Source of the DNA: Tubiluchus corallicola
Taxonomy: Eukaryota > Priapulida > Priapulimorpha > Priapulimorphida > Tubiluchidae
Direction: 5' to 3'
DNA length: 60,000 nt
Assembly (NCBI GenBank): GCA_030141605.1
Contig: JAQGDQ010000140.1
Coordinates: 201,001 to 261,000, forward strand
Shown: one piece after another, positions 7,146 to 30,897 of the stretch
Numbering within the stretch: the stretch's first letter is position 1
Layout: each line of letters begins with the position of its first letter
Made by a program: the position numbers and the translations under genes
Notes under the pieces: model-generated
What the model was told of the DNA's origin: nothing
Seen by the model: only the letters and a program-made list of their open reading frames with translations
The model's database searches: none

Positions 7146-8147
7146 TCACGAATTATGCAGTGGCTTGTGCCTGCTTAACCCGCCAATTTGTGTGAAACTC
7201 TTATGACATACGTCACACTTGTAAGGTCGTTCACCCGTGTGAATCCTCATGTGGATTTTTAAAGAACCAGACTGTGAGAAACATTTCCCACACACCTTAC
7301 ACTCGAATGGTCTCTCACCAGTATGCGTTCGCTGGTGCATTTTTAGACTTGCAAGGCTGGAGAATGCTCTTCTACACCACTCGCACACAAACACAGTCTG
7401 TCGATTGTCCCTCCCGCCAAGCTTTGGTTTTCGTCCTCTTTTAACGACCATCCTAGTCAGCTGCGGTGTCTTGAAGGTGGACATGTGTGCCTCAGAATAG
7501 TGATCCCTTATATTCAGAATTTCATTCTTGTCTGACTGTGGTCTTCGTCCTCTTTTAATAACCGGTCTTGCCAGATGGAAAGCTTCGGAAGATGGAAGTC
7601 GTGTCTCAGAACAGCCATGAGCCAGATTTACAGCTTCGCTTTCATGAGATGAAATTTCACTGAATGGTTGGCCAATTCTAAGCGATGCATCAGCATCATC
7701 CAATACAATGCACTCCATTTCATTGTCAACAACTGGTTTTTGTTCTACCTGTTCATCTGAGCTTTCGTTTGCATCTTGATTTTTGTTGGGAAAGTCATAA
7801 TTGGTGTCAGAGTGTTGCAAACTATACTTTGAACTGAAAATGTCTTCACTATCAGCAACAGCAGGTTCACTATGTGCAGCTGGCTGAGCAGCGTCTTCGA
7901 TCAGGATAGGAGAAACATCACAACAAAATGATTTGCCAGTCAATGATGTCTTTTCAGTTTTGCAAACTGCGTCAGCATCATCAACACCTAAGCCGAATGG
8001 AGAATCATTGACACTGTTGATGTGCTGCCCCTCACTAACCAGTATTTTGCAATGCCAAGCTCTTGTATGAGCAAAAAAAATTTCCTCTGCGATAAAGCAT
8101 TCGGAGCAGGCAGTGCACTTGTAATAGAGAAGCAATTCAGATTCCAT
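7146..8147 (-). CDS. C2H2 zinc-finger protein with AT-hook-like motifs, 333 residues
   Basis: This single uninterrupted coding exon encodes a likely nuclear DNA-binding protein. An N-terminal finger covers residues about 9-32 (C11, C14, H27, H32). A long acidic, serine-rich linker follows. Two AT-hook-like motifs, KRGRRP (about 198-203) and KRGRKPK (about 236-242), sit in an imperfect internal duplication. Three canonical fingers close the protein (about 253-275, 281-303, 309-331), joined by TGERP linkers, and the protein stops two residues after the last histidine. An acceptor (TTTGCAG) lies at 8171-8172, 23 bases before the ATG, and a TAG is in frame between them, so a 5' UTR exon probably lies upstream. 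Finger fold and AT-hook type are clear; target and pathway are unknown. Confidence 0.88.
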   Translation of the reverse strand: MESELLLYYKCTACSECFIAEEIFFAHTRAWHCKILVSEGQHINSVNDSPFGLGVDDADAVCKTEKTSLTGKSFCCDVSPILIEDAAQPAAHSEPAVADSEDIFSSKYSLQHSDTNYDFPNKNQDANESSDEQVEQKPVVDNEMECIVLDDADASLRIGQPFSEISSHESEAVNLAHGCSETRLPSSEAFHLARPVIKRGRRPQSDKNEILNIRDHYSEAHMSTFKTPQLTRMVVKRGRKPKLGGRDNRQTVFVCEWCRRAFSSLASLKMHQRTHTGERPFECKVCGKCFSQSGSLKIHMRIHTGERPYKCDVCHKSFTQIGGLSRHKPLHNS

Positions 8148-8580
8148 GCTTTCACGTGAGTTCTACAATGCTGCAAAGTACAAATTAAATTACACCTTAA
8201 ATAACATATTATAGTAAGTTTTTGCTTAAGGGTGCCGTTTTGTTTAGTGTCATTTCGTTTTAACAATGCTGATCATTTGACAGCTTTTTTCACATTTTTA
8301 AGTAGTGAAGTAGTGTTGCCTGCAATAGTGTTTTACAAAGAAGCCCTATTACTAAAAATCTTCCCCTATTACTAGAAATAATTTGGCCTACTATAGAGGA
8401 TGATTCACTGTTGGCCATTTGCTAATTGATGGCACTTTCTCACATAGAAATTGAATTCCTCTGATAAAATTAACTCATGTTAAATTGTTGGGCTAACTAC
8501 TGCTGGGTTCAACTCACTTGCATTATGTTGTCTAAAAAACAAAAATAGAACTGCTTCTCAGATAGTGTAGTATCAAGTAC

Positions 8581-13972: not shown

Positions 13973-15428
13973 ATAAAGATATCGCTAGTAGCCAGGTAAC
14001 TTGAAAAAAGTGTTGTTGTCAGATCATCCTTGTCAAGTTCATAGCCTAACTTATATAAGCAATATGCGTTCTTATGCTCATACACCATAGTTATTGCTAG
14101 CCTATTCAAAAAAGTATAGAGAGACAAGTGAATGATGTCTTACTATCAAATTAATTGTGGGGAAATGCCTTTTTTAATTTTAAGGTCTATTGTAACCAAG
14201 CAGCACCATTAATTACTGGCCCACGATTTTAACAAATTTATAAATACATATACGGAATAAAATTTGTCATAAAAACAATCAAACCAGGGAAATTACCCCT
14301 CAAAATTAAGAAATTACAGAATTATATTATCGACTGAATTGTGGTCTAGTTTCAAAACTTGCAAAAAATGAGCAATTATTTTACATTCACAATTGAGACT
14401 ATATGATCTTAAGCTCATAGTACAAGTTACAAAATTTGATGACATTGCCTGGTGGTCAAGTTAAATGTATTAATGTATTAGAGTAATTTATTCGAAGCAC
14501 CATAGTGCTATGCACATAAAATTTTTTCACAAGTTTATATCAATGCCATCACACATACGAATATTGAACATGCCTAAGTGAAGTGATCGTATTTAACATG
14601 TATCCTATGATTTTGACTGACATAAGTTACCTAACCAGTAGAAACCCATTTTTTTAAAAAAACTACTAATTATGTCCATCGCTAACTGCAATGTCATAGC
14701 AAACAGTATTTCATTCTAAGAAATATCATTTATAGTCACCACTACATCTCATTATAAATTTAATCATGTGTACATCATATACTCTATTTATAAAATTCAA
14801 TACATTTCGTTCTACAGAGCTGTACATGCATTAACGTAATCATTTACAATTATAAAATTATCAATATCCTTTTACAGAATCAATTATAAAAGCTGATATC
14901 CTTGCAAAATAACCTAGTGTTCTGTAACATAATTATCTTGTTTTACAAGTTGTCTCTTTTCCATACTTAAGCTAAAGCTATTAACAATAGCGCAGAGATT
15001 ACGCCAATTGCGTTAAATTCACATTGTACAGGAATATACGTTATAAATGAGGACAGTAATTTTAAATTCACACACATGATCAGATTCAAGTTCTGGGAAA
15101 CAGAACTGTAGACACTTGCTGCTAACACTTTGTCATCATACAGCACTACTTTACTTAGTATTATCAAGCTAACTGCATGTCTCTGATGCTTTTTTTTGCT
15201 TGTACTCCCAACAACTTGTCTTATACCATATTACAATAAAGAACAAGACTAACCAAAGAGCATTTGTTATAAAACTCTGCAATACACATTTTTCCAAGAA
15301 GTTGCTCCATAGACAAGAAAATAAGAAATAAAAAATGGGAGTTTCTATACGCAGAAAGTTAGCAAGAGGCTTGCACAAGCAGGTCTGTACATTGTTCCTA
15401 ATCTGTTATTACAATGGCAGCAACAGGT

Positions 15429-17142
15429 TTATATGGTAAAATAAGGAAAATGATAATCAGGTGGAAATTGTGGCTGAAATTCCATGATTTGTGGTCTGTA
15501 GTCCGATGTCGGAAGTTGCGGCCGCAGATCAGGCCTGAATTCTGGCCGCAGATCAGGCCGAAAGTCCGGACGAATCTCAGCATGCGGAAACTGAGCCCTG
15601 ATTAAGCCAGGGTGTGGACCATGCTGTACCAGATTGGAGTGAGTCAAGTGTGGATGGGCTGGGGGTGGATGTGGATGAGACTCTGAATGTGGAGGTCGTG
15701 GTGGATGTGAAGGAGATTGTGTATGTGGAGGTAGAGCTGGAGCTGACGGTACTTGTGGCAACTGTGCTTTCAGCTCATATTGGGGCAATGCTGCTTCTAA
15801 TTGAGGTGGATGCTGTTTCTGTTCTAACTGGGGTTGACGGGGTTGAGGCGCTCGACGTGGCTTAACATCTGGTGTGCTATTAGCATGCGATTTCTCATGT
15901 TTTCTCATTTTGTCTTGCCGTGCAAATGCTAAACCACAAATACTGCAATTGTATGGCTTAAGACCAGTGTGTGTTAATGCATGTCTTCTCAAGTCACTTG
16001 ATGTCAGAAAAGCTTTTTCACATTTATCACATTTATGAGGTTTTTCGCCTGCATGATTTCTCATGTGTTTACTCAAACCGCTGGACGTTGCAAAAAGACC
16101 TCCACAAAGCTTGCATAAATACGGCTTTTCGCCAGTATGAACTCGTTTGTGCACTTTCAGAGATCCGGACTGTGTGAATCGATTACCACACTCGTCACAA
16201 ACGTACGGTTTCTCACCCGTGTGAGTTCTTTTGTGCACTATCAGCTTAGCTGCTATTTTGAAGTGAATACCGCACTCGTCGCACTGAAAATCTTTTTCTA
16301 AGGAATGGCTCCGTTTATGGCGTGCTAGCTTATCAGCTCGGGAGAATGTTGCCTTGCACACAGAGCAAGTGTATGGCTTCTCTTCACTGTGCGATCTTTT
16401 GTGAATTAGTAACTTATAGCGATTGTAATATTCCTTACTGCAAAGGTCACACTTAAATACTTCTTGAGGTTCTAGACCAGGAGGAGGGTGCCGAATTTGG
16501 ACGTGAGTTTTAAGGCTACTGTACGTGTAAAATATCTGATCACATTGCCTGCAATTAAATGGCTTCGACTCTGAATGAGTTTCAATGTGTTGTTTCAGTG
16601 CTAGTTTTCCCTTCATCTGCTCATCACATATCACACATTTGTACTCACTCATGTCATGGGAAGTTAACACGTGATGGTTAAACTCACTGGCAAGTAAAAA
16701 GGAAGAGTCGCATTGATCGCAATTAAACGGTTTGTCTCCGACATGGATATAATTATGACGCTGCAGTGCAATATTGTTTGGAAACACCAAGTCACACAGC
16801 TCACATTTAAACTGTGTGTGTTCGGGGTGCTTATCACTATAGTGTGAATTCAGGCACTTAAATGTGAAAAAGCTTTCATTGCACAACCTACAATCGTACG
16901 GTTTTTCGCCCGGGTGAATCTTAGCAATGTGACTGTTGAGCTTGTCACGACGTGCAAACGCAGCCTCACACTTAGTGCAAGCAAACGGTTTTTCTCCCGT
17001 GTGAGTTCTGATGTGCAGTTTGAGTGCATAGCTGCGTACAAACACGGCATCACACCAATCACATGTAAATGCTTTCTCTCCAGTTTTCTGTAAATCTTGG
17101 ACAATTTCCTCCAAGCCTATAGAAGCTGCAGCTGAAAGATGA
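15429..17142 (-). CDS. Zinc-finger cassette C: third (most distal) candidate alternative terminal exon, 14 C2H2 fingers
   Basis: On the minus strand this exon follows a strong acceptor (TTTTGTTTTCAG) and opens with one base (T) that completes a codon left by the shared exon 2, giving serine, then HLSAAASIGLEEIVQDLQKT. Fourteen C2H2 fingers follow, the last four joined by conserved linkers. The tail is rich in proline, glutamine and histidine, with RPDLRPEFRPDLRP-type repeats, and ends PPDYHFPYFTI before the stop. The exon adds 570 residues, so with exons 1 and 2 the protein would be 672. Fingers 11-14 are almost identical to cassettes A and B; fingers 3-6 and 9-10 differ. It is probably a nuclear DNA-binding factor; the target is unknown. 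No nearby AATAAA was seen. A separate gene with a missing 5' exon is the alternative reading. Confidence 0.85.
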
Positions 17143-17931
17143 CTGAAAACAAAATAATTAGCGTGAATTTTCGAAAGAAATTAAAAACGAACAATTGGTA
17201 GCATTTAGTAATATTAATATGGTTGCTCTGCAACTGCGTGAAGAAAACTGTAGAAACTACTGTGCCATAACATACATAAAATCATCACTAGACGATAATA
17301 AAGTTTGAACTGGTTGTTTGCTATCTCACAATAGTTCGGCACTGATGCAAACGAGAGCAAACTTGCCATTTTTATCAAGACTGTATAATTCATATCACAA
17401 GATGCAATAGAGACAAAAGATAATATGTGATCACACAACACTCATGGAAGAAAATATCTCGCTTTTGGCTGTGCACATCCCATTATCAGGTGATCCAGAT
17501 GTAACGCAAAATACTATAGCAGAATACATGTGATTGGTGCTGTGCCGTGTTTGGTACAAAGCTCTGCAATAAGAAAAATGACTGGTACCAGTCATCATTA
17601 CATTAGTAAGTAGATCTTAATGTAAACAGTTGAATTTAACAACATTTCTAACTGCACTGGCACACAACTAAAGTAATATTACACATATTTTGATATAAAT
17701 CTAGTATTACTGTCAGTAACTGAAACAACATTCTTGTCAAGTAAACACACAGTGAATTACTATATAACCTTTACATAGTAACTAAGTCTAACTTTTACAC
17801 TGCATAGGAACAGTTAAATTTAAAAGCACCAAAGCAGCACAAAAGAAATGGGGAAGACTAATTGTTCCACACATTTTATTGTAACAGTGGCAGCTGCTAA
17901 ATTATTGCTTCTTGAACTAAACTGTAATGAT
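17143..17931. other. Spacer between zinc-finger cassettes C and B
   Basis: This 789-bp stretch would be intronic for isoform C and 3' UTR or flank for isoform B. It contains TTTATT at 17875-17880 (AATAAA on the minus strand), about 52 bases past the stop of cassette B. No exon was seen. Confidence 0.6.
17875..17880 (-). terminator. Likely polyadenylation signal (AATAAA) of zinc-finger cassette B
   Basis: Minus-strand AATAAA lies about 52 bases after the stop codon of cassette B. A poly(A) signal here supports cassette B as a terminal exon rather than an internal one. Confidence 0.6.
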
Positions 17932-19561
17932 TTATATAGTGAAATAAGGAAAATGCGGATGGTAATCTGGAGGAAGTTGGGACTGCAATTCCAAGACTTG
18001 TGGTCTGTAGTCCGATGTTGGAACTTGTGGACGCATGTCCGGGCGGAGTTCGTGATGAGGGCGGATTTCTACTTGTTGGAACTGAGGCCTGATCATTTCG
18101 GCTTGTGAAATGTGTGGCGCAAATTCAGGAGGAGGAAAAGTAGGGTGTGGATGCATGTGAGCGGGCGCTGGCGGATGTGCAGGCTGTGACACCGGTGCTT
18201 TTATTTCGAACATTTGTGACTTCACCTCAAATTGAGGCGTACGTGAAGTGTGGCTTCGAGGAGCACGAGATTTAACCTCTGGGGTGCCGTTAACGTGAGA
18301 TTTTTCGTGCTTTCTCATTTTATCTTGCCGAGCAAATGCCAAACCACAGATACTGCAATTGTATGGCTTAAGACCTGTATGTGTTAATGCATGTCTTCTT
18401 AAGTCACTTGATGTAAGAAAAGCCTTCTCACACTTATCACATTTGTGTGGTTTTTCTCCAGCGTGATTTCTCATGTGTTTACTCAAGCCACTGGAAGTTG
18501 CAAAAAGACCCCCACAAAGCTTACACAAATACGGTTTTTCGCCTGTATGAACCCTTTTGTGCACCTTCAAAGATCCAGACTGAGTGAATCGATTACCGCA
18601 CAAGTCACAAACGTACGGTTTCTCACCAGTGTGCGTTCTCCTGTGCACAATCAATTTAGCTGCAATTTTAAAGCGAAGTCCGCAGTCTTCGCACTGGTAA
18701 TCTTTGACAGAAGAGTGAGTTTTCTTATGACGGGCTAGCTTGTCACTACGAGCGAATCTTGCAGAGCATTCATCACAAGGATAGGGCCTTTCACCGGTGT
18801 GAGAACGTTGGTGCACCAGCAACTTGTACCGATGAAAATACTCTTTGTTGCACAGTTCACACTTGTACACTTCTTGAGGTTCTTGACCAGGAGGTGGATG
18901 ACGAAGCTGCACATGCGTCTTGAGGTTACTGTACGTGTAATATACATCCTCAGTGTCAACACAGTGCTTACACTTGAAAGGTTTCTCGTCAGCATGAGTA
19001 TCTATGTGCTGCCGCATGGATACTTTACCGCTCAACTGTTCATCACATATTACACACTTAAACTGGCTTAAATCGTGTGCATTCTTTACATGAGCATTAT
19101 ACTTAGACAGTCTCACAAAGGAGGCATCGCATTGGTCACAGTTATATGGCCTACTCCCACTATGCGTATAACTGTGACGTTGCAAAGCCGTTTTACTCGG
19201 AAACCCTTGTTCGCACAAGTCACATTTGTACAACGCATGCTCAGGATGTGTAGCATTATGATGTATGTTCAGGGCTTTAAACGTGTAAAATGCTTCGTTA
19301 CAAAACTTGCACTCGTACGGTTTCTCGCCTGGATGAACCTTAGTAATGTGATTGTTGAGTTTGTCACGACGAGCAAATGTTGCATCGCATTTGCTACAAG
19401 CGTGCGGTTTTTCTCCTGTGTGAGTTCTGATGTGCAGCTTTAGTGCATAGCTGCGTGAAAACACGGCATCGCAAAAATCACACGAAAATGTCTCTTCACC
19501 GGTTTTCTGCAAATCCTGTACAATTTCCTCCAATCCAAAAGCAGCTGCGGCTGAAAGAGGA
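17932..19561 (-). CDS. Zinc-finger cassette B: second candidate alternative terminal exon, 14 C2H2 fingers
   Basis: The exon starts after TTTTTGTTCCTTTCAG and, like A and C, opens with a single T in the phase left by exon 2, then PLSAAAAFGLEEIVQDLQKT. It encodes 542 residues (644 with exons 1-2): 14 fingers and a proline/histidine-rich tail ending LPPDYHPHFPYFTI. Finger 7 has three extra residues between its second cysteine and first histidine (CVDTEDVYYTYSNLKTH), unlike A and C, which have the usual 12-residue spacing. B is the most divergent copy. The reading frame stays open upstream of the acceptor to an ATG at 19704, so an independent start is possible, but the strong acceptor and shared phase favour splicing. 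Confidence 0.85.
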
Positions 19562-19859
19562 CTGAAAGGAACAAAAACTCTGTAACTAAGTGGTTTTACA
19601 ATACGTTCTCTGAAGGAGCTACACCCAAAAATTAAAAAAATATGGCGAACAAATAAAATATTTTTGCTGTTTTTGTTGGCAAAACCACGTTGGTTAGCAA
19701 TCAACTATCTCCATTACTGTCCTCTAATGTATCAACAAATCTCTGAAAATTAAAGTGGCAGTAAACATTTAAGACGTTAAATACAAAACGAGCAAATTTT
19801 ATGATTTGTGACATTCGATCAATCTTTTATCAGCACATAACAATCAAATACCTATGTAA

Positions 19860-20095
19860 TATTTGTACAGGAGGTCAATTAGCTTATGTTAATCTACAAG
19901 GACATCAACGACAATGTCAACTTGGATTTTTTTGTTCACAAAAGAGTGAACACAACATACAGAAAACCGGAGTTGTGCGATGCCGTGTTTGTAATCCGCT
20001 TTGTAGCCAGTTTGCGGAACCACATAATAAACAAGCCATCAAAAAAATCAGAACGGACAAATGTACACGTCACTAGCAGTGTCCAGTTTGAAATT
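19860..20095 (+). pseudogene. Decayed zinc-finger relic in inverted orientation
   Basis: The plus strand at about 19935-20060 reads FFVHKRVNTTYRKPELCDAV and then FVIRFVASLRNHIINKP. This lines up with the finger-linker-finger pattern of the cassettes (VHKRTHTGEKP, C, D, then L-HxxxH), but zinc ligands and the linker are lost. DNA similarity is also visible by eye (CACAAAAGA, AAACCG, TGCGATGCCGTGTTTGTA). It lies opposite to the surrounding cassettes, so an inverted, dead duplicate is the likeliest explanation. Chance similarity is not excluded. Confidence 0.42.
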
Positions 20096-20099
20096 TATT
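20094..20099 (-). terminator. Candidate polyadenylation signal (AATAAA) of zinc-finger cassette A
   Basis: Minus-strand AATAAA lies about 510 bases past the cassette A stop. A TATAAA variant lies nearer (about 20540). Either could end isoform A. This is weaker than the signal after cassette B. Confidence 0.35.
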
Positions 20100-20609
20100 A
20101 ACTAAGATGCACCTTACACTATCAGTCACCCAAACAACATTCATAATTCTAGTTATCATCAAAGTCATCTTCAAATCAACTAATATTGCAATTTGAACAA
20201 ATTTCGATGATTAGCAAAGACTTCTAAAATCATTTTCATACTTAATTCAATTGCTTAAAAGAACAGAGAAATAGTTACTTAAAAATGGAAATATAAATTA
20301 CCTAATGGACTAGACTAGAATGGCTGAAAAATTTTTCAGTTTACTATTGTTAATGAATTTAAAAGAATTCCATAATTTGTGCAACCAAAAAATCTTTATG
20401 CACTAACAAAGATAAGCTGGCTGAAACAATATGCATGAGGCGCAACCAAATTAATTGGCCCTCTTAAGTAATTATATTCGACAAATTATGTGTGAAAAGC
20501 TCATTATTATATGAAAGAAAGCTATTAAATGTACAAAATTTATACAGCAATAAAATCCATCTCTGAATTACAATGCACTGTTCTTACAATAACTTAGTAA
20601 ATATACAAT

Positions 20610-22248
20610 TTAAATTGTAAAATAAGGGAAATGTGGGTGGTAATCTGGGGGAAGTTGGGGTTGTAACTCCATAATTTGGGGTCTGTAGTCTGATGGTTGA
20701 ATCTGAGGAGGCCTAAGATCCGGTCGGAGCTCATGGGGGTGGCGGAGATCAGGGCGGATCTCCGGCTGAGTAAACTGAGGTCTGATCATTTCTGGCTGTG
20801 AGTTTTGCTGCTGCATAAGCTCTGGGTGTGAAAGGTGTGGATGAGAAAGAGGGTGAGGTGGAGGTGGCGGAAGTTGCTGCGGATGTGATACTTGTGGTTG
20901 TTTGATTTCAAACTGGGGTTTGACCTCAAAGCGAGGAGGGCGCGGAGCAAGGTTACGAGGAGCACGAGGTTTAAAGTCTGGTCCGCCATTGATGTGTGAC
21001 TTCTCGTGTTTTCTCATTTTGTCTTGTCGTGCAAATGCTAAACCACAGTGACTGCATTTAAAAGGCTTAAGACCTGTATGTGTTAATGCATGCCTTCTTA
21101 AATCACTCGACGTTAGAAAAGCTTTTTCACATTTATCACATTTGTGAGGTTTTTCTCCCGCGTGATTTCTCATGTGTTTTCCTAAACCACTAGAAGTTGC
21201 AAAAAGACCTCCGCAAAGCTTACACAAATATGGTTTTTCTCCAGTGTGAGTTCTCTTGTGAACTTTAAGCGATCCGGACTGTGTGAATCTATTACCGCAC
21301 AGGTCGCACACAAATGGTTTCTCGCCTGTGTGAGTTCTTTTGTGTACGATTAACCTAGCTCCCACCTTGAACCTAATTCCGCATTCGTCGCATTGAAAAT
21401 CCTTCTCAGAGGAGTGCATTTTCTTGTGCGAAGCCAGTTTATCACTGCGAGCAAAGCTAGAAGGGCATTCGTCACAATGGTACGGCTTCTCACCTGTGTG
21501 AGAACGCTGATGTACCAATAGCTTGTAGCGATTGTAATATTCCTTGTTGCAAAGCTCGCATCTAAACACCTCCTGAGGTGTCTGTCCGGGAGGGGGGTGC
21601 CGTACCTGGACGTGAGTTTTAAGACTGCTGTAAGTGTAAAATATGTCTTCACAGTCTTTACATTTAAACGGCTTGCTGTCCGCATGGGTTTCAACATGCT
21701 GCTTCAGTGCTAATTTGCCTTTAAGTTGCTCGTTGCAAATTATACAGGTGAATTGATTCGTTTCGTGTGCTAACTTATGTGCATTGAATTTTGAGGCCTG
21801 TGCAAATGAGCTATCACACAGATCACAATTAAATGGTTTTTCACCAGTGTGATGAAGGCTATGACGCTGCAGGGCATTTTTGTTAGGAAATCCTTGATCG
21901 CAAGAGTCACATTTGTAAAGAGAATGTTCCGGATGCTTATCATTGTGGTGCGCATTCAGGCACCTAAATGTATAAAACGTTTCGTCGCAAAACTTGCAAT
22001 CGTATGGCTTCTCTCCCGGATGAACCTTAGAAATGTGATTGTTCAGTTTATCACGACGAGCAAACGCAGCCTCACACTTAGTGCAAGCAAACGGTTTTTC
22101 TCCTGTGTGAGTTCTGATGTGCAGTTTGAGTGCATAGCTGCGTACAAACACGGCATCACACCAATCACATGTAAATGCTTTCTCTCCAGTTTTCTGTAAA
22201 TCTTGGACAATTTCCTCCAAGCCTATAGCAGCTGCAGCTGAAAGATGA
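20610..22248 (-). CDS. Zinc-finger cassette A: first candidate alternative terminal exon, 14 C2H2 fingers
   Basis: This is the cassette nearest the shared 5' exons. The acceptor is TTTTCGTTTCAG. The exon opens with one T that completes a serine codon, then HLSAAAAIGLEEIVQDLQKT. It adds 545 residues (647 with exons 1-2): 14 C2H2 fingers with mostly TGEKP-type linkers, then a long tail of prolines, histidines and PHELRPDLRPP-type repeats ending LPPDYHPHFPYFTI. Its first roughly 200 bp are almost identical to cassette C, including bases inside the acceptor, while the middle fingers differ. Contact-helix changes lie mainly in fingers 3-5, 9 and 10. It is likely a sequence-specific nuclear factor. 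Default use is expected if the first acceptor wins; reaching B or C would need skipping of A. Confidence 0.86.
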
Positions 22249-22997
22249 CTGAAACGAAAATAATCAATAAGAAAAATCTAAAATGCAGCGAAAATCTAAT
22301 GTCACCACCTGAATCCTAGGAACTTGAAAAATCCTGCCTGAAAAGTATGTAGGACACTAAAAAGCACATTGGTTTATTATTTTTTATACTCTTAATTAAT
22401 TCTAGAAATGATTTTACTATCCAAGGGAAAAATTGAATTTGATATACTGCTTAATCAACTGGTGCTTTTCTCTTTAAACATATCAGACCACCGGATGAAA
22501 GCATTTCCAAAAAATGTAGCTAGCAATGACTGATAAATTGCTAGTGAAAATTCATGATAGTTTAAATAAGTACTAAGGTATTAAGTTTTTATACTTGGAC
22601 GACAACATGCTAACTTTAAGCAGAAAATTGCAAAATATTCGAAAAAAATGCACTGGAAAAAATGCATCAAAAATCATTCATTGCCAAAGTATGAATATAA
22701 AAGTATGTTTTGATAAAAATACAAGCAGCAGTGTTTGTAAAACGAGTGAAATGCTTGTAAAATTGCTTGCTGCACATAGTAAAAGCATTAGCCTTGCTAA
22801 AATAAATTGGAAAAGGATTCAGTGCAAAATTGTTAAATATTGTCTGCACTCCGACAATTACTGAAAAAGTTGGTCTTTATTTTCATACAATTTTGCTCAT
22901 AAATAAAAAACATGAAACAATAATTAATACATCACACGTGCCGTATTGATTGCCAAAAAACCAGTACATTTTTAAAATAGGTAGACTAAGCCCAAAG

Positions 22998-23319
22998 TAC
23001 TGATTTTGGATGTTAAAAACCTTCAAAGTTACATGAGGTGGCGATATGCTGCAGATTTTGATGGTCGACCTTAGGGTGCTTGTCCAAACGTTCTTGCAGA
23101 AAAGAAAGGTTTTGCTTTGATTTGCTTGGTTTTTGCACTCCTTGTAAAAAAAACCAGAAAGATGAGCATACACGATGAAGGGTGCAAAAGCCAGGCAAAG
23201 CAAAACCTTGCTTTTCTGCCAGAGTGTTTGGACAAGCACTCTAAGTTCAACAAGCAAGATCTGCAGAACAATGCTACTTCACATAACTTTGGAGACTCTT
23301 TTACCCATCCAAAATCAGT
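22998..23319. mobile_element. Imperfect palindromic MITE-like element, about 320 bp
   Basis: The ends TACTGATTTTGGATG and CATCCAAAATCAGTA are exact inverses. Inner blocks also pair, for example GTGCTTGTCCAAAC with GTTTGGACAAGCAC and CAGAAAAG with CTTTTCTG. The whole segment could fold as one imperfect hairpin. No coding capacity was seen; superfamily and target duplication are not clear. Confidence 0.7.
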
Positions 23320-24097
23320 AAATTATTGTTTTCAAATAGGCATCTTTGCTTTAGCTTTAAGTAACTAATCCCATAAAAATTGCACAATGTTACTCATTTT
23401 GAGGAAAAAACGTGAAAATTTAATCACTCGGTATTTTCATCCCTTCATCACGGAAAATCAGTAAGAATACGTTTGCATCTATATATTAATTCTCTTGGTA
23501 TGGGCTTAATATACATATAAGATTCGAGGCTACAGCTCGGACGACGGCACCATTTGTGGAGATCTATACATCAAACGAAAGATCTCGATCTAGTATATAA
23601 ATAAAAAGGGTTGTACGTTTATCAATGGCCAATACAAAAAGCATACTAAATCAAGATCTTACTCTTATTTAGAATTCTGTGATGAAAATGCGGTGCAAAA
23701 CACTATATGCAAAACGTTAAAAATGATGTGGATATCTTGATGCATTAAAAACGTTTGAAAAAAGTTTTTTCATTGACTCACTGACTCTGTTCTAATTTCT
23801 GGTCACTGATTAAGCATTTGAAGAACAATCAGATCAATTCAGGTTATCACAAAACCTAATTTCAGGTAGATTCTAATAAAAAAATCTGTGTTCAACACTC
23901 AATATGGAAAATCTCAGACACGAACAAGGTGCTTAGCCATAACTTAAGGACAGTGACAAAGTCAAAGCGCATCAAGTGATAGGAAACTCACAATACGTCA
24001 CACATAAATAAAGTGTTTATTTATTTAATTCACAGTTTGATACAGCTCCTCTACAAATATAATCTTCGAATATAACTTTTTATCGCACGTTTACTAG

Positions 24098-24955
24098 GTA
24101 TGTCACGAAACTCCGACAGAACAGGAGAAATCGAATCCGAATTGAAGCATTAATTCAATTCGATCCGTCTGCGTTACCTTAGGTCTGATCGGATTCGGCA
24201 CAAACTTTTAGAAAATATCCAGTTTAGCCTCGGTTGCAAAGACGATTCAGTGGCGGTTTATTATAAAAGCATTATATATCTCATTTATCTTTAAACTTTT
24301 TTTGCAAAATCCAGAAATCGCTGCCTTTTTTTGATAATTTTGTCTTATTGAAACATGTCAATGGCGCCATGTTCACTTTCAGCATGTGTCAAACTTATGA
24401 AATCCCCTGCAAAAGCATGCACGCATTACGGTTTTTACTGCTAGTTGCAAAAAACGCTAAGATTTTTTGTGCTACTTTGACAGAATGTGGTTTTCGCTAA
24501 CTAAAGCTTAAATGAACATAGTTTTTTTGTCATCCACATTACACAGACTCGGTAAAAACAAGGAATTTTTTGACTAACTGATCATTTTATATTGTTAGTC
24601 ACCAGCAGAAAAAATCTGTTACTGAATAATTAGATCATCTATATTCTTTATTATTGCAGAATTACTGTCACACGTGCTGCTCAGACAGGTCACCTGTAAT
24701 CTTTGTGAAAAACACTGCTGTCTTACCAATCTGCCTTAGTTTAGTTGGAAACTGGGTAGATTCAAATAAGATTCAGCTCAAAGAACTATCAGAAAAACTG
24801 AGATTACAATTCGATTCGGTTGTGAAAATTATTTTAAACTGAGATTTGGATTCAATCAGGATTCGAAAATTATTTTAAACTGGCTTTCAGAATCAAAAAT
24901 TATCATAAAATGAGATCCAGATTCTGTAATTTCAGATTCGTGACATGCTTACCAA
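24098..24955. mobile_element. Possible DNA transposon with GATTCG-rich interior
   Basis: The left end reads TATGTCACGAA and the right end TTCGTGACAT, a short inverted match about 860 bp apart. The flanks TTACTAGG and TTACCAAG are similar and could be a decayed 8-bp duplication. The interior is rich in GATTCG and GAATC words. It is plausible but weak; a related GATTCG-rich stretch lies at about 56260-56370. Confidence 0.33.
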
Positions 24956-25925
24956 GCAACTTAAACTTGGTTGCACAAGCTTAGCTGAAAGCTTGGGAAC
25001 CTTTTTTAAATAAAAACCCCAAAAGAAAGTTAAAATACAGCAAAAATTCTGTAAAAATTAGAAATGTTAGCATGCATGATGTAAGGTACATGCAGTATAC
25101 TGTGCAAACTGTAAATGCAAAGAAAGCTGAAAGATTCATAATTATAACGACTGATGATTACAAATGAAATATTTAAGAATTTTTGTTATTTTGGCATATT
25201 AACGATTAGCAATGGCTGATTTTCTGCATTAAAGCATATACAATTTTTACCCATTCATATATGAAATTCCTTGAAAGATGCTAAGCAGATCTAAAAGAAT
25301 TTCAGTCTGAGCCCTGCTAATGACATCTCTGTTATTTGGTAGACCTGAAGAGACCCACAGAGCCACTGTTTTGCAGAAAAACCACACTGGCACTATACTG
25401 TTGAGGAAGGAATAAACATCCAAATAATGCTAAGGCACCTCTACTGGTTCAGTATCTTGTACAACAGAAGTTTACCTTCAAATGACAATGAGTAACAGTC
25501 CGGTCCCACCACAGACAATTGCCATTAATACGAGGCCCAGTCAAACTGCCATGATGTACTAGATTTTGGTTTGCAGTTCGATGAATCGTATGGAAAGTAA
25601 ATCTTATTTCACTACGAAATGGGCCTGCTTATTGAAGTAATCATAATAAATATAGCATTTTTAGTCATAATAACAAAACAAATTCCACAATTTTTTTGAG
25701 TTAGTTACACAGAAAAATGCAAGAGCCACATCAAAAACCTTTCATTGCTGTGTGTTGTAGCACATGGTACGCCACATTTTCTTGGTAGCAAGTACAGTTT
25801 AAAGCAAGGCGATTAGTCTATGAAATACAATATCAAATAAGCTGCAAAATAATCAAGTATGGTGCATGTTGTCACATGTTACCCTATGTCAAAATTTTGC
25901 GAACTCCACAGCAATTAATTTGTAC

Positions 25926-26018
25926 CTTAAAGAATTTGACGTCAGCGACCTTGGCTTCCTAGGTGCTCTCTTGCGTCGGCGGCCTAATGTCAAGGCTGGA
26001 AATTTCCTCTTGTGAAAC
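25926..26018 (-). CDS. Zinc-finger locus shared exon 2 (basic linker)
   Basis: This 93-bp exon lies between a good acceptor (TTATCTTGTTAG) and a donor (AAG|GTACAA). Its first base completes a glutamate codon begun in exon 1. The 30 full codons read FHKRKFPALTLGRRRKRAPR, then KPRSLTSNSL. Its last two bases (AG) join a T that starts every one of the three zinc-finger cassettes, making serine. The other usable frame hits a stop, so this frame is the only one that works. GRRRKRAPRKPR is strongly basic and could be a nuclear localisation signal or AT-hook-like contact. The phase agreement at both ends with exon 1 and with three separate cassettes is the main support. Confidence 0.82.
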
Positions 26019-27596
26019 CTAACAAGATAAATAAAATTATAATAAATATTTATGTAGGATTTTTAAGTTAACATATTCACACATATCTTTCAAAGCTATT
26101 TTCAGATATACTAAAAAGATAGGCCAGCAACAAAAAAAGTTTTGCTTTTGTCTTACCTCATATGTTCAAAAAAGGAAATTTTTTTTAAAGCTTTGTAAAC
26201 GTTTAAGCTTGAATAGTGAAATATTTAAAATGAATAGTTGAAATATTTCCCACTAGCAGTAATGTTTTAAATTTTTCCAGCAGTAATGTTTTAAATTTTT
26301 CCAATGCACAATTTTTCACCACTTCTTTTTTAGTTTTACATACTAAAATATCGCATGATTATCAATTATTGTATAGTCTATTTTTTGCATCATAAAAGTA
26401 TATGTTCCGATAATTATGATATAAGCGGCAACACTACTCAGCCATTAATACACCAATTTGGCAGAAAATTTGATGCTTTCAACCTCCAATAAAATGAGCA
26501 TCATACAAGATGGCAACCCTGGCCATCTCTAAACTCTACTGGCTTTGTTTGTTCCACTCATTAATAATTCCTTATAGCTTAAAAAAATTAACTGCGACAC
26601 AGACAGTGTATGAAACAAAGCACCAGGTTATGCATTTGTGGGATACGTTTGTTTTCAACAGGTGCAGTGTGTATTTATACAAAGATATTTGATACTTTGT
26701 TATATATATATGACGTCTCTGGGAATGGTTAAATGGTTAACCGACCACAATTGAAAAAGTTTAAACAGTCTCAGCCCTAATAAAAACGTTTAATGCCTTT
26801 AACAGTCTCACAATGATTATTCATTTATTTCAGGAGCTGAATTATAATAAGCCTTAATTTTTAGGTAATATAATTATTTTTCTTCACGTGACATTTCAAC
26901 CTGTTCAGATCATAATTAAAACTCATGCATCTGTAAGAAATTACAGTTTGTACTCCATTTAAATTTCACTTCCTTTAAATTTTATTAAAGAACGTTTTTC
27001 TGTTTATAATTATTTTAACCTGTAATTATAAATTCATTATCTAGATAATGATCCAATACTGCTAGGCAATAGAATCGAAATATCAAAGATAAAAAAAATA
27101 TTTTCTTGTTATAATATTTATTAAACTTTGCACACCAAGTACTGCATGACATAAGTACTTACATAATGCACAAAATTTGGCAGTAAGTCATAAACTTAGA
27201 GCCTACAGTATGCCAACTGCAGCTACCATAAGCTCATTAAAATTATTTTGCATTTAGTCAGATATATTGCAGGATTGTGTAGTCAAAAATGTCAACATTT
27301 TATTGCTTAAAGTGAAAAAGAGTTCAGAATTTGCATCACATTTTATGTAACTTCTTGCAAATTTCCACAGGGTTCTCTGCAGAAACTTCCCGTTTGTGAT
27401 CGCGCACGGAAAAACATGGCGCATCTACTAAAATTTTTCCAATATTTTTGGCACGAGTTTCAGTTGAATGCAATTAGCTCGCGAACTGTTTTCTATACAG
27501 CTACATGCAACGAAACTACAGCAAACACAAATTTGTTCAACATTACCCTCATTTTCAAATAACCGATATTTTAAACACTTATTTCGTCATACTTAC
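26019..27596. other. First intron of the zinc-finger locus
   Basis: AT-rich and non-coding. A 23-bp near-perfect direct duplication (AGCAGTAATGTTTTAAATTT core) lies at about 26257-26303. Near the exon 1 end, CpG-containing words (GATCGCGCACGG, CTCGCGAAC) hint at a promoter-proximal region. A 49-codon plus-strand ORF at 27416 was judged chance. Confidence 0.55.
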
Positions 27597-27808
27597 TCGT
27601 CAAGAAGAACCTGTGCAGTCTCTTCGTCGGATTTAACGCCTAATCTTTGCTTAACCAACTGCCAGCGATGAAATTCCTTTCCCAGCGATTCTCTAAATCC
27701 TTTTGACTTGATAAAGTTGCGTTTCAATTGATCCAAACGTCGTTTCGACGGAAAATGTCTGTATCTTCGAATAATAGAAAAACCTCCTTTCTTCTTGATG
27801 CCAGCCAT
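27597..27808 (-). CDS. Zinc-finger locus shared exon 1 (common N-terminal domain)
   Basis: This exon starts at MAGIKKKGGF in a strong context (AAAATGG) and encodes 70 residues, plus two bases of a split codon, before a consensus donor (GA|GTAAGT). The sequence is very basic, then has the pattern RWQLVKQRLGVKSDEETAQV followed by LLD. From memory, W-x-LK-x-x-LG-x-K-x-D-x-E-A-x-LLD motifs occur near the N terminus of several animal zinc-finger proteins, where they may act as an interaction module; I cannot name the domain with certainty. No BTB, KRAB or SCAN domain is visible. The exon splices in frame to exon 2 and supplies the shared N terminus for isoforms A, B and C. Confidence 0.8.

Positions 27809-29867: not shown

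Positions 29868-29871
<4 letters not shown>

Positions 29872-29950
<79 letters not shown>
29872..29950. repeat. (TG)n microsatellite, 79 bp
   Basis: An uninterrupted TG tract upstream of the phosphatase gene, on the strand of its transcription. Long TG tracts can adopt Z-DNA; any effect on the neighbouring promoter is speculation. Confidence 0.97.
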
Positions 29951-29954
<4 letters not shown>

Positions 29955-30897
29955 TGAAAAATGATAAAAATGAAAATCAGAGATTAGCGCTTAGCGAGAA
30001 AACCTTAAGATAAGAAAATCCTCCATTACCTTACTATAAATGTATAAGATATGTTTAGTAGTCTTTATTACGCTCCTTTGAGCATTTTACTGAAAGAACC
30101 ATTAAATAATATTTTTATTAAGGTGACATAATTTCCGTATTACGTATCTAGGTTACGACCTATCAAATACGTTTAAAGATTTTTATAATTTATTTTAAAA
30201 ATCTAATTCATTGAAATTTTACGCTATTAGGCCCATATAGAGAGACAAATCCAAATTTATTTTCCCGTGACGCTAATGAAATGTATGGCAGCAGAAAATT
30301 TTTTTTAATATTTACGATGACGTAAAACCCTAAGGCGTCAGAATCACAGAAAGTTTTTCCTACTTTCCTCATAATATTTTAATTATTAGCACTGAGAGAT
30401 TTTTACTTAGCAACTTTTACGACAGCAAAAACGCATATGACATCAATAACCGTATTTGGGACACATCGTACTTCATTGGCTGACAACCTGTCACGTGATC
30501 ACTCATTCACAACTCTAGTTAGTGGTGCTCAGTGCTCACGCCACGGCACTAGACGGATAGGAAGCGCAGTATGGAGTGTGTGTAAGGTGCAGCCACGAGT
30601 TTACCTAACTTGCTTTTGATTTGAGACGTTCATTCTGAGTTTGGACTTTGCTATCGTACATTGTAATGACAAGCCACTGCTATGCATCGTTACTGCTAAA
30701 GCTACTAATTATTTTTATGTAGAAGGTTTCAAAGCTGAGCAAAACCGTGTGTTTTCTCCGGGAAATTTTTTTGCAATGTTCAAGGGTTTACGTGAGCAAA
30801 CTATTCAATTTTTGACATTTGGTCGAGATTGATGTTTCTGATACTAGACTCGTGGGTAGTCTAGGAGAGAACGTTTAAGAGCAGCGGAATAAGACAA

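Follow-up and report, generated by a model that had tools for sequence, protein, structure and literature searches.

We analysed a zinc-finger locus in a 60,000-nucleotide stretch of the genome of the priapulid Tubiluchus corallicola (contig JAQGDQ010000140.1, positions 201,001 to 261,000; this whole stretch is hereafter the window). The locus consists of an exon 1, a probable exon 2 and three large terminal exons, designated cassettes C1, C2 and C3, all of them lying in order on one strand inside 12.4 kb (Table 1). Exon 1 ends two bases into a codon at a donor that matches the consensus at 7 of 9 positions, the end of exon 2 reads ..TTAAG/GTACAA, and every cassette begins ..TTTCAG/T (the slash marks the splice junction), the junction codon being AGT in C1, C2 and C3. 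In each join the frame is open to the stop, over 545 (C1), 542 (C2) and 570 (C3) amino acids past the junction codon. Exon 2 has a length that is a multiple of three, so its skipping would stay in frame and exon 1 could join the cassettes directly. The tail behind the fingers is rich in Pro and His and terminates in PYFTI in all three cassettes, and Pfam searches with the cassettes returned C2H2-type finger models together with a few related short models. The coordinates, phases, frames and AGT junctions of an initial annotation of this DNA were recomputed and agreed, while its count of 14 fingers in each of three exons holds strictly for C1 and C3; in C2, finger 7 is irregular, with three extra residues (C-x2-C-x15-H), and the other 13 are regular.

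None of the three cassettes has an in-frame Met ahead of its fingers. The first in-frame Met is residue 277 in C1, 182 in C2 and 164 in C3, located after 9, 6 and 5 of the 14 fingers, respectively, and a start at the cassette's own first Met would cost 5 to 9 fingers. As a control, we took open reading frames with at least four fingers from nine other zinc-finger loci of the same genome (L005-L013; the best-scoring others, not a random sample, and partly redundant, as L009 and L010 overlap and L011 is a copy), and all 10 of 10 have a Met before the first finger. Within positions 30808-22249 (8,560 bases), the sole ATG exon with a length of 30 nucleotides (nt) or more and a phase-2 donor of at least 7/9 is exon 1. 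It has a single match in the 343.5-megabase assembly, and tblastn within the window gave no second exon 1 and, for exon 2, one insignificant match of 13 residues. The initial annotation had proposed that the gene exchanges whole finger arrays behind a basic, non-BTB N terminus. Because the phases match, no Met precedes the fingers, no convincing rival start exon lies in the gaps and exon 1 is single, alternative terminal exons are indeed the best fit, and the N terminus is basic and carries no BTB domain; we regard the proposal as partly supported overall, and consider it quite likely that a single N terminus is shared by the three terminal exons, which are used as alternatives. As judged from its sequence, the locus combines constant 5′ exons with several in-frame alternative C2H2 terminal exons.

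Table 1. Features of the zinc-finger locus of T. corallicola, in window positions.
Feature	Positions	Strand	Description
Exon 1	27597..27808	-	212 nt; ATG and 70 codons, basic N terminus; phase-2 donor GA/GTAAGT
Exon 2 (probable)	25926..26018	-	93 nt, Lys/Arg-rich; phase 2 at both ends; weak donor AAG/GTACAA
C1, terminal cassette 1	20610..22248	-	linker, 14 C2H2 fingers, Pro/His-rich tail, stop
C2, terminal cassette 2	17932..19561	-	13 regular fingers and irregular finger 7, tail, stop
C3, terminal cassette 3	15429..17142	-	14 C2H2 fingers, tail, stop
AATAAA, candidate poly(A) signal of C1	20094..20099	-	sole A[AT]TAAA within 1,500 bases past the C1 stop
AATAAA, candidate poly(A) signal of C2	17875..17880	-	sole A[AT]TAAA within 1,500 bases past the C2 stop
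AATAAA after C3	14487..14492	-	one of three A[AT]TAAA within 1,500 bases past C3; the others start at 14764 and 14178
E1	19953..20047	+	antisense to linker/finger 1, a decayed copy (core 19970-20003); located past the C1 poly(A) signal and ahead of the C2 acceptor
E2	17494..17597	+	antisense to linker/finger 1; located past the C2 poly(A) signal and ahead of the C3 acceptor
Probable gene-conversion tract, C1 side	22060..22248	-	cassette nt 1-189
Probable gene-conversion tract, C3 side	16954..17142	-	cassette nt 1-189

The shared N terminus, including the putative interaction module that the initial annotation had suggested for exon 1, was searched for domains and relatives. Neither exon 1 plus exon 2 plus linker (125 amino acids) nor exon 1 alone (70 amino acids) matched any Pfam family at E <= 10, and BTB, KRAB, SCAN and ZAD domains were all absent from the N terminus at this threshold. 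Among 251 candidates from the protein collection no relative was found at E <= 1, and when the 120 cassette matches listed were searched with two regular expressions for an N-terminal motif of familiar appearance, nothing useful emerged. The single match to a solved structure, RecX, was insignificant (E 0.39). The single-sequence structure model of exon 1 is helical, with low confidence (mean predicted local distance difference test score, 66.3; predicted template modelling score, 0.33).

Several points weigh against the swapping of terminal exons as set out above. The gene structure is predicted from genomic sequence, and the exon scans were designed for start exons that are coding and carry a consensus donor; first exons without coding sequence, exons with a non-consensus donor and far-upstream exons may have escaped them. 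The N terminus has no detectable relatives, so its coding nature is read from the frame alone. The exon 2 donor is weak, matching at 6 of 9 consensus positions, and the strict scan (donor of at least 7/9) gave no internal exon and so missed exon 2. A relaxed scan returned five internal-exon candidates from four acceptors, two of these candidates sharing the acceptor of exon 2 and one of the remaining three being longer, 303 nt (23240-22938). In favour of exon 2, its acceptor is the richest in pyrimidines of the four (12/15, versus 10, 7 and 7), and the content of G plus C is 0.495 in exon 2 versus 0.298 and 0.336 in the adjoining introns. Exon 2 is the least certain part of the gene. We infer that more than one cassette is spliced to the N terminus, that the joining is in cis, that the poly(A) signals are used and that the products function as DNA-binding regulators. 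The intron between exon 2 and C1 carries a long inverted repeat (22998-23320) with arms of 107 nt that are 79% complementary and outer arms of 22 nt (86%), which looks like a small hairpin element.

The three cassettes could instead belong to three separate tandem genes, with C2 and C3 each driven by a separate promoter and preceded by small undetected 5′ exons. Clusters of finger genes are ordinary, and further finger open reading frames of the genome are found close together on one contig. The C1-C2 gap contains three nested weak start exons that share one poor donor, upstream of which a short ATG frame spans 10-18 codons, and AATAAA follows each cassette, an observation that we also counted for alternative terminal exons. 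However, the gaps between the cassettes measure just 1,048 bases (C1-C2) and 789 bases (C2-C3), the exon scan found no candidate start exon in the C2-C3 gap, a second copy of exon 1 is lacking, and the acceptor phase and the absence of a pre-finger Met are common to all three linkers; tandem genes are thus unlikely. Transcription of the cassettes apart, followed by trans-splicing to exon 1 or 2, appears very unlikely: trans-splicing is reported for part of lola and mod(mdg4), the closest design (PMC11426971), but nothing in the present sequence requires it, with all parts ordered on one strand within the short span given above.

The cassettes are about 65-75% identical in amino acids, as tandem homologous exons. 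The proportions of differing synonymous sites (pS) are 0.76, 0.69 and 0.69 for C1/C2, C1/C3 and C2/C3, and those of nonsynonymous sites (pN) 0.13, 0.15 and 0.16, about one-fifth of pS in each pair. Since the synonymous sites are near saturation and the amino acids are kept, all three cassettes look maintained, and they look like old duplicates with preserved protein sequence. The use of a single cassette, with the other two being recently silenced duplicates, would be compatible with genomic sequence alone, but is highly improbable, as the frames are intact at this level of divergence and the silencing would need to be very recent. In the assembly, C1 gave 270 matches (80 of 836 candidates were scored); among those listed, besides C1 itself, just C2 (residues 2-545) and C3 (residues 1-475) match C1 over most of the length, and the others listed extend over at most 195 residues with at most 58% identity. 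In the protein collection, scoring was confined to the candidates with the most words in common; of these 7,939, 7,629 were cassette relatives at E <= 0.001, and the 120 matches listed, generic finger proteins with at most 43% identity, included no orthologue.

The predicted contact residues (-1, 2, 3 and 6) are the same in C1, C2 and C3 for finger 1 and fingers 11-14, and in each of the other nine fingers, with the irregular C2 finger 7 counted, one or more cassettes deviate. A fastest rate of change at the contact residues was not supported: 18 of 56 contact columns vary, compared with 29 of 81 other loop and helix columns and 49 of 181 remaining finger columns. Between C1 and C3 we counted 2 differences in the first 189 nt of the cassettes and 24 in the next 111. 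This step points to a probable gene-conversion tract reaching from the linker through finger 1 into the beginning of finger 2.

Both gaps between the cassettes carry an antisense copy of the linker/finger 1 region, designated E1 in the C1-C2 gap and E2 in the C2-C3 gap, matching the same part of finger 1. When the cassettes were compared by blastn with both strands of the remaining window (E up to 0.5), the E2 core (17525-17568) was 84% identical over 44 nt (E about 4e-6) and the E1 match (19970-19993) 95% over 19 nt (E 0.08); the same search also gave the finger gene near 7.2 kb and one sense match at 13.3 kb (E 0.28). After dinucleotide shuffling of each gap, the score of E2 was reached by 0 of 500 shuffles and that of E1, which aligns only with a gap of about 20 nt, by 1 of 500. 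In antisense controls the score was reached by 46 of 200 shuffles for the whole pre-C1 intron, by 281 of 500 for its last 1,048 bases and by 243 of 500 for the 1,048 bases past C3, and no antisense finger-1 copy was detected upstream of C1. On the sense strand, the likeness of the gaps to cassette starts is weak in the C1-C2 gap (score reached by 19/500 shuffles) and absent from the C2-C3 gap (457/500). The spacing of the arms is 457 nt from E2 to C3 and 490 nt from E1 to C2. Since blastn between the two gaps gave no other similarity, the survival of both E1 and E2 hints at constraint, a recent or independent origin being possible as well. The E2 stretch (17480-17640) has one match in the assembly in a search skipping very common words, by which E2 as part of a dispersed repeat was rejected. 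A perfect 18-nt palindrome (17578-17595) adjoins E2. The antisense finger-1 copies before C2 and C3 are the new feature of this locus, with a putative function, and the case is clearer for E2 before C3.

Predicted base pairing links E1 and E2 to cassette sequence on the far side of the acceptor. Folding of 681-nt regions gave 41 predicted pairs between E2 and finger 1 of C3, 14 between E1 and finger 1 of C2, and 0 for the matching stretch before C1; the drawn structure of the C2 region has an extra E1 pairing block in the linker. The z scores of folding (20 shuffles each) were -6.25, -2.80 and +1.10 for the C3, C2 and C1 regions, respectively, and -4.39, -3.76 and +0.77 in a second run, in which 30 control stretches, evenly stepped across the window with a few inside the locus, spanned -3.97 to +3.18. 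In that run none of the controls reached the value of the C3 region, and a single one (-3.97) was below that of the C2 region. In a duplex scan over all cassettes, the linker/finger-1 region was the best partner of both E1 and E2, and each of them is predicted to be able to pair with more than one cassette: duplex energies of E2 were -79 kcal/mol with C1 and C3 versus -59 with C2, and those of E1 were nearly equal, -73 to -76. When compared with single-base shuffles, the real pairs were below all 300 shuffles in a wider duplex window, and in a narrower one the lowest E1 shuffles (-55.5 and -52.2) were below the real pairs (-53.2 and -42.9). Synonymous change between C1 and C2 affects 1 of 11 codons in one finger 1 window versus 44 of 107 in the rest (P 0.05), and in other windows 8/28 versus 37/90 (P 0.27) and 3/23 versus 42/95 (P 0.008); as these windows were picked after inspection and the outcome depends on the window, the low synonymous change in finger 1 is only suggestive.

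The antisense copies are fairly likely to be functionless, decaying remnants of an inverted partial duplication. The weakness of E1 taken alone, its gapped alignment, the window-dependent and only suggestive synonymous constraint, the matching of the C2-region fold by one of the controls, and the derivation of all these data from one species agree with this origin; against it are the presence of an antisense copy of the same stretch in both gaps, at a similar distance before the next cassette in gaps that share no other blastn similarity, and the folding of the C3 region. That RNA steers the choice of terminal exon, E1 or E2 pairing either with finger 1 of the next cassette and looping in its acceptor, or with finger 1 of C1 and masking it, we regard as a tentative and rather doubtful possibility. 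The coding exon itself would then be the docking partner, and finger 1 would be kept alike jointly by protein and RNA constraint.

The swapping of terminal exons behind a shared N terminus could proceed as follows. One transcription unit, starting upstream of 27808, would yield one N terminus from exon 1, probably together with exon 2, and this would be spliced to any one of the three homologous cassettes. Each of these has an acceptor and a stop of its own and probably also a separate poly(A) site. The products would be three zinc-finger proteins with a common start, common predicted contacts in finger 1 and fingers 11-14, and differing contacts in most other fingers. In the simplest model C1 would be the default, being first in order, and its sole AATAAA, about 0.5 kb past the stop, would permit read-through to C2 and C3. 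E1 or E2 would be present in the read-through RNA alone, and through them the acceptor of C2 or C3 could be looped in, or C1 masked.

Other features were noted around the locus and elsewhere in the genome. Another finger gene piece (7146-8162, minus strand) combines an extended N-terminal region with three C2H2 fingers close to the end, and terminates in HNS. On the other side, a divergent neighbour (about 30898-52020, plus strand; three exons as joined in this analysis) encodes a dual-specificity MAP-kinase phosphatase of the DUSP6/7 type with rhodanese-like and DSPc domains, and a long AC repeat (about 29870-29955) separates it from the zinc-finger gene. Database matches of the phosphatase are mixed, coming from fish, mammals, horseshoe crabs, myriapods, hemichordates and others, and indicate no more than an animal. 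Five contigs (C45, C2048, C2100, C2197 and C2212) contain a 3,945-residue open frame rich in finger matches, with equal match scores, indicating near-identical copies, possibly of a mobile or amplified gene, or assembly duplicates. An identical 895-residue, 27-finger open reading frame is present on two contigs (L009 on C1585 and L011 on C1335), representing either a duplicated region or unmerged haplotypes.

In the Drosophila BTB genes broad, tramtrack and fruitless, constant 5′ exons are followed by alternative 3′ ends, many of which carry C2H2 fingers. The ends of such lola-type loci carry few fingers, and the T. corallicola locus has far more per end. For lola itself, 17 of 20 isoforms carry different C2H2 ends behind constant 5′ exons (PMC11426971). 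The T. corallicola locus is like the lola-type BTB loci in its constant 5′ exons and alternative C2H2 3′ ends, but it has no BTB domain and its ends are recognisable duplicates of each other; by analogy, it would work like lola but is not a BTB locus. In mammals, PEG3 and ZIM2 are finger genes that share 5′ exons without a BTB domain. They differ from the T. corallicola locus in their fingers and N terminus, and their two final exons are not known to be such tandem duplicates. Passages of PMC4830991 and PMC3769284 do not confirm this sharing. The remark in the initial annotation that no described locus has this design goes too far where the principle is concerned, because C2H2 ends are swapped in lola-type loci; cassettes of 14 fingers following an N terminus without BTB were not found among the papers listed in the literature searches, subscription journals being mostly outside their coverage.

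The variable exons of Dscam1 are internal, and their pairings are between introns. Tandem homologous exons with competing pairings are described for the docking site/selector sequence exons of insect Dscam1 and others (PMC8042237), and for mutually exclusive exons in which the arms are proposed to arise by stem-loop arm duplication (PMC6071210). Tandem homologous exons are common to those systems and the present locus, and here the ability of sequences to form competing pairings is a prediction. In contrast to Dscam1, the cassettes are terminal rather than internal, each with a stop followed by AATAAA, and the antisense pieces, with a putative role, match the coding sequence of finger 1.

If transcripts confirm this structure, a whole 14-finger array would be exchangeable as a unit by the choice of terminal exon without a BTB start, and related binding proteins would be placed under one promoter. 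Proteins sharing the contacts of finger 1 and fingers 11-14 would then form a natural set for the role of the middle fingers in target choice, and with the antisense finger-1 copies it could be examined directly whether coding sequence doubles as docking partner in splice choice.

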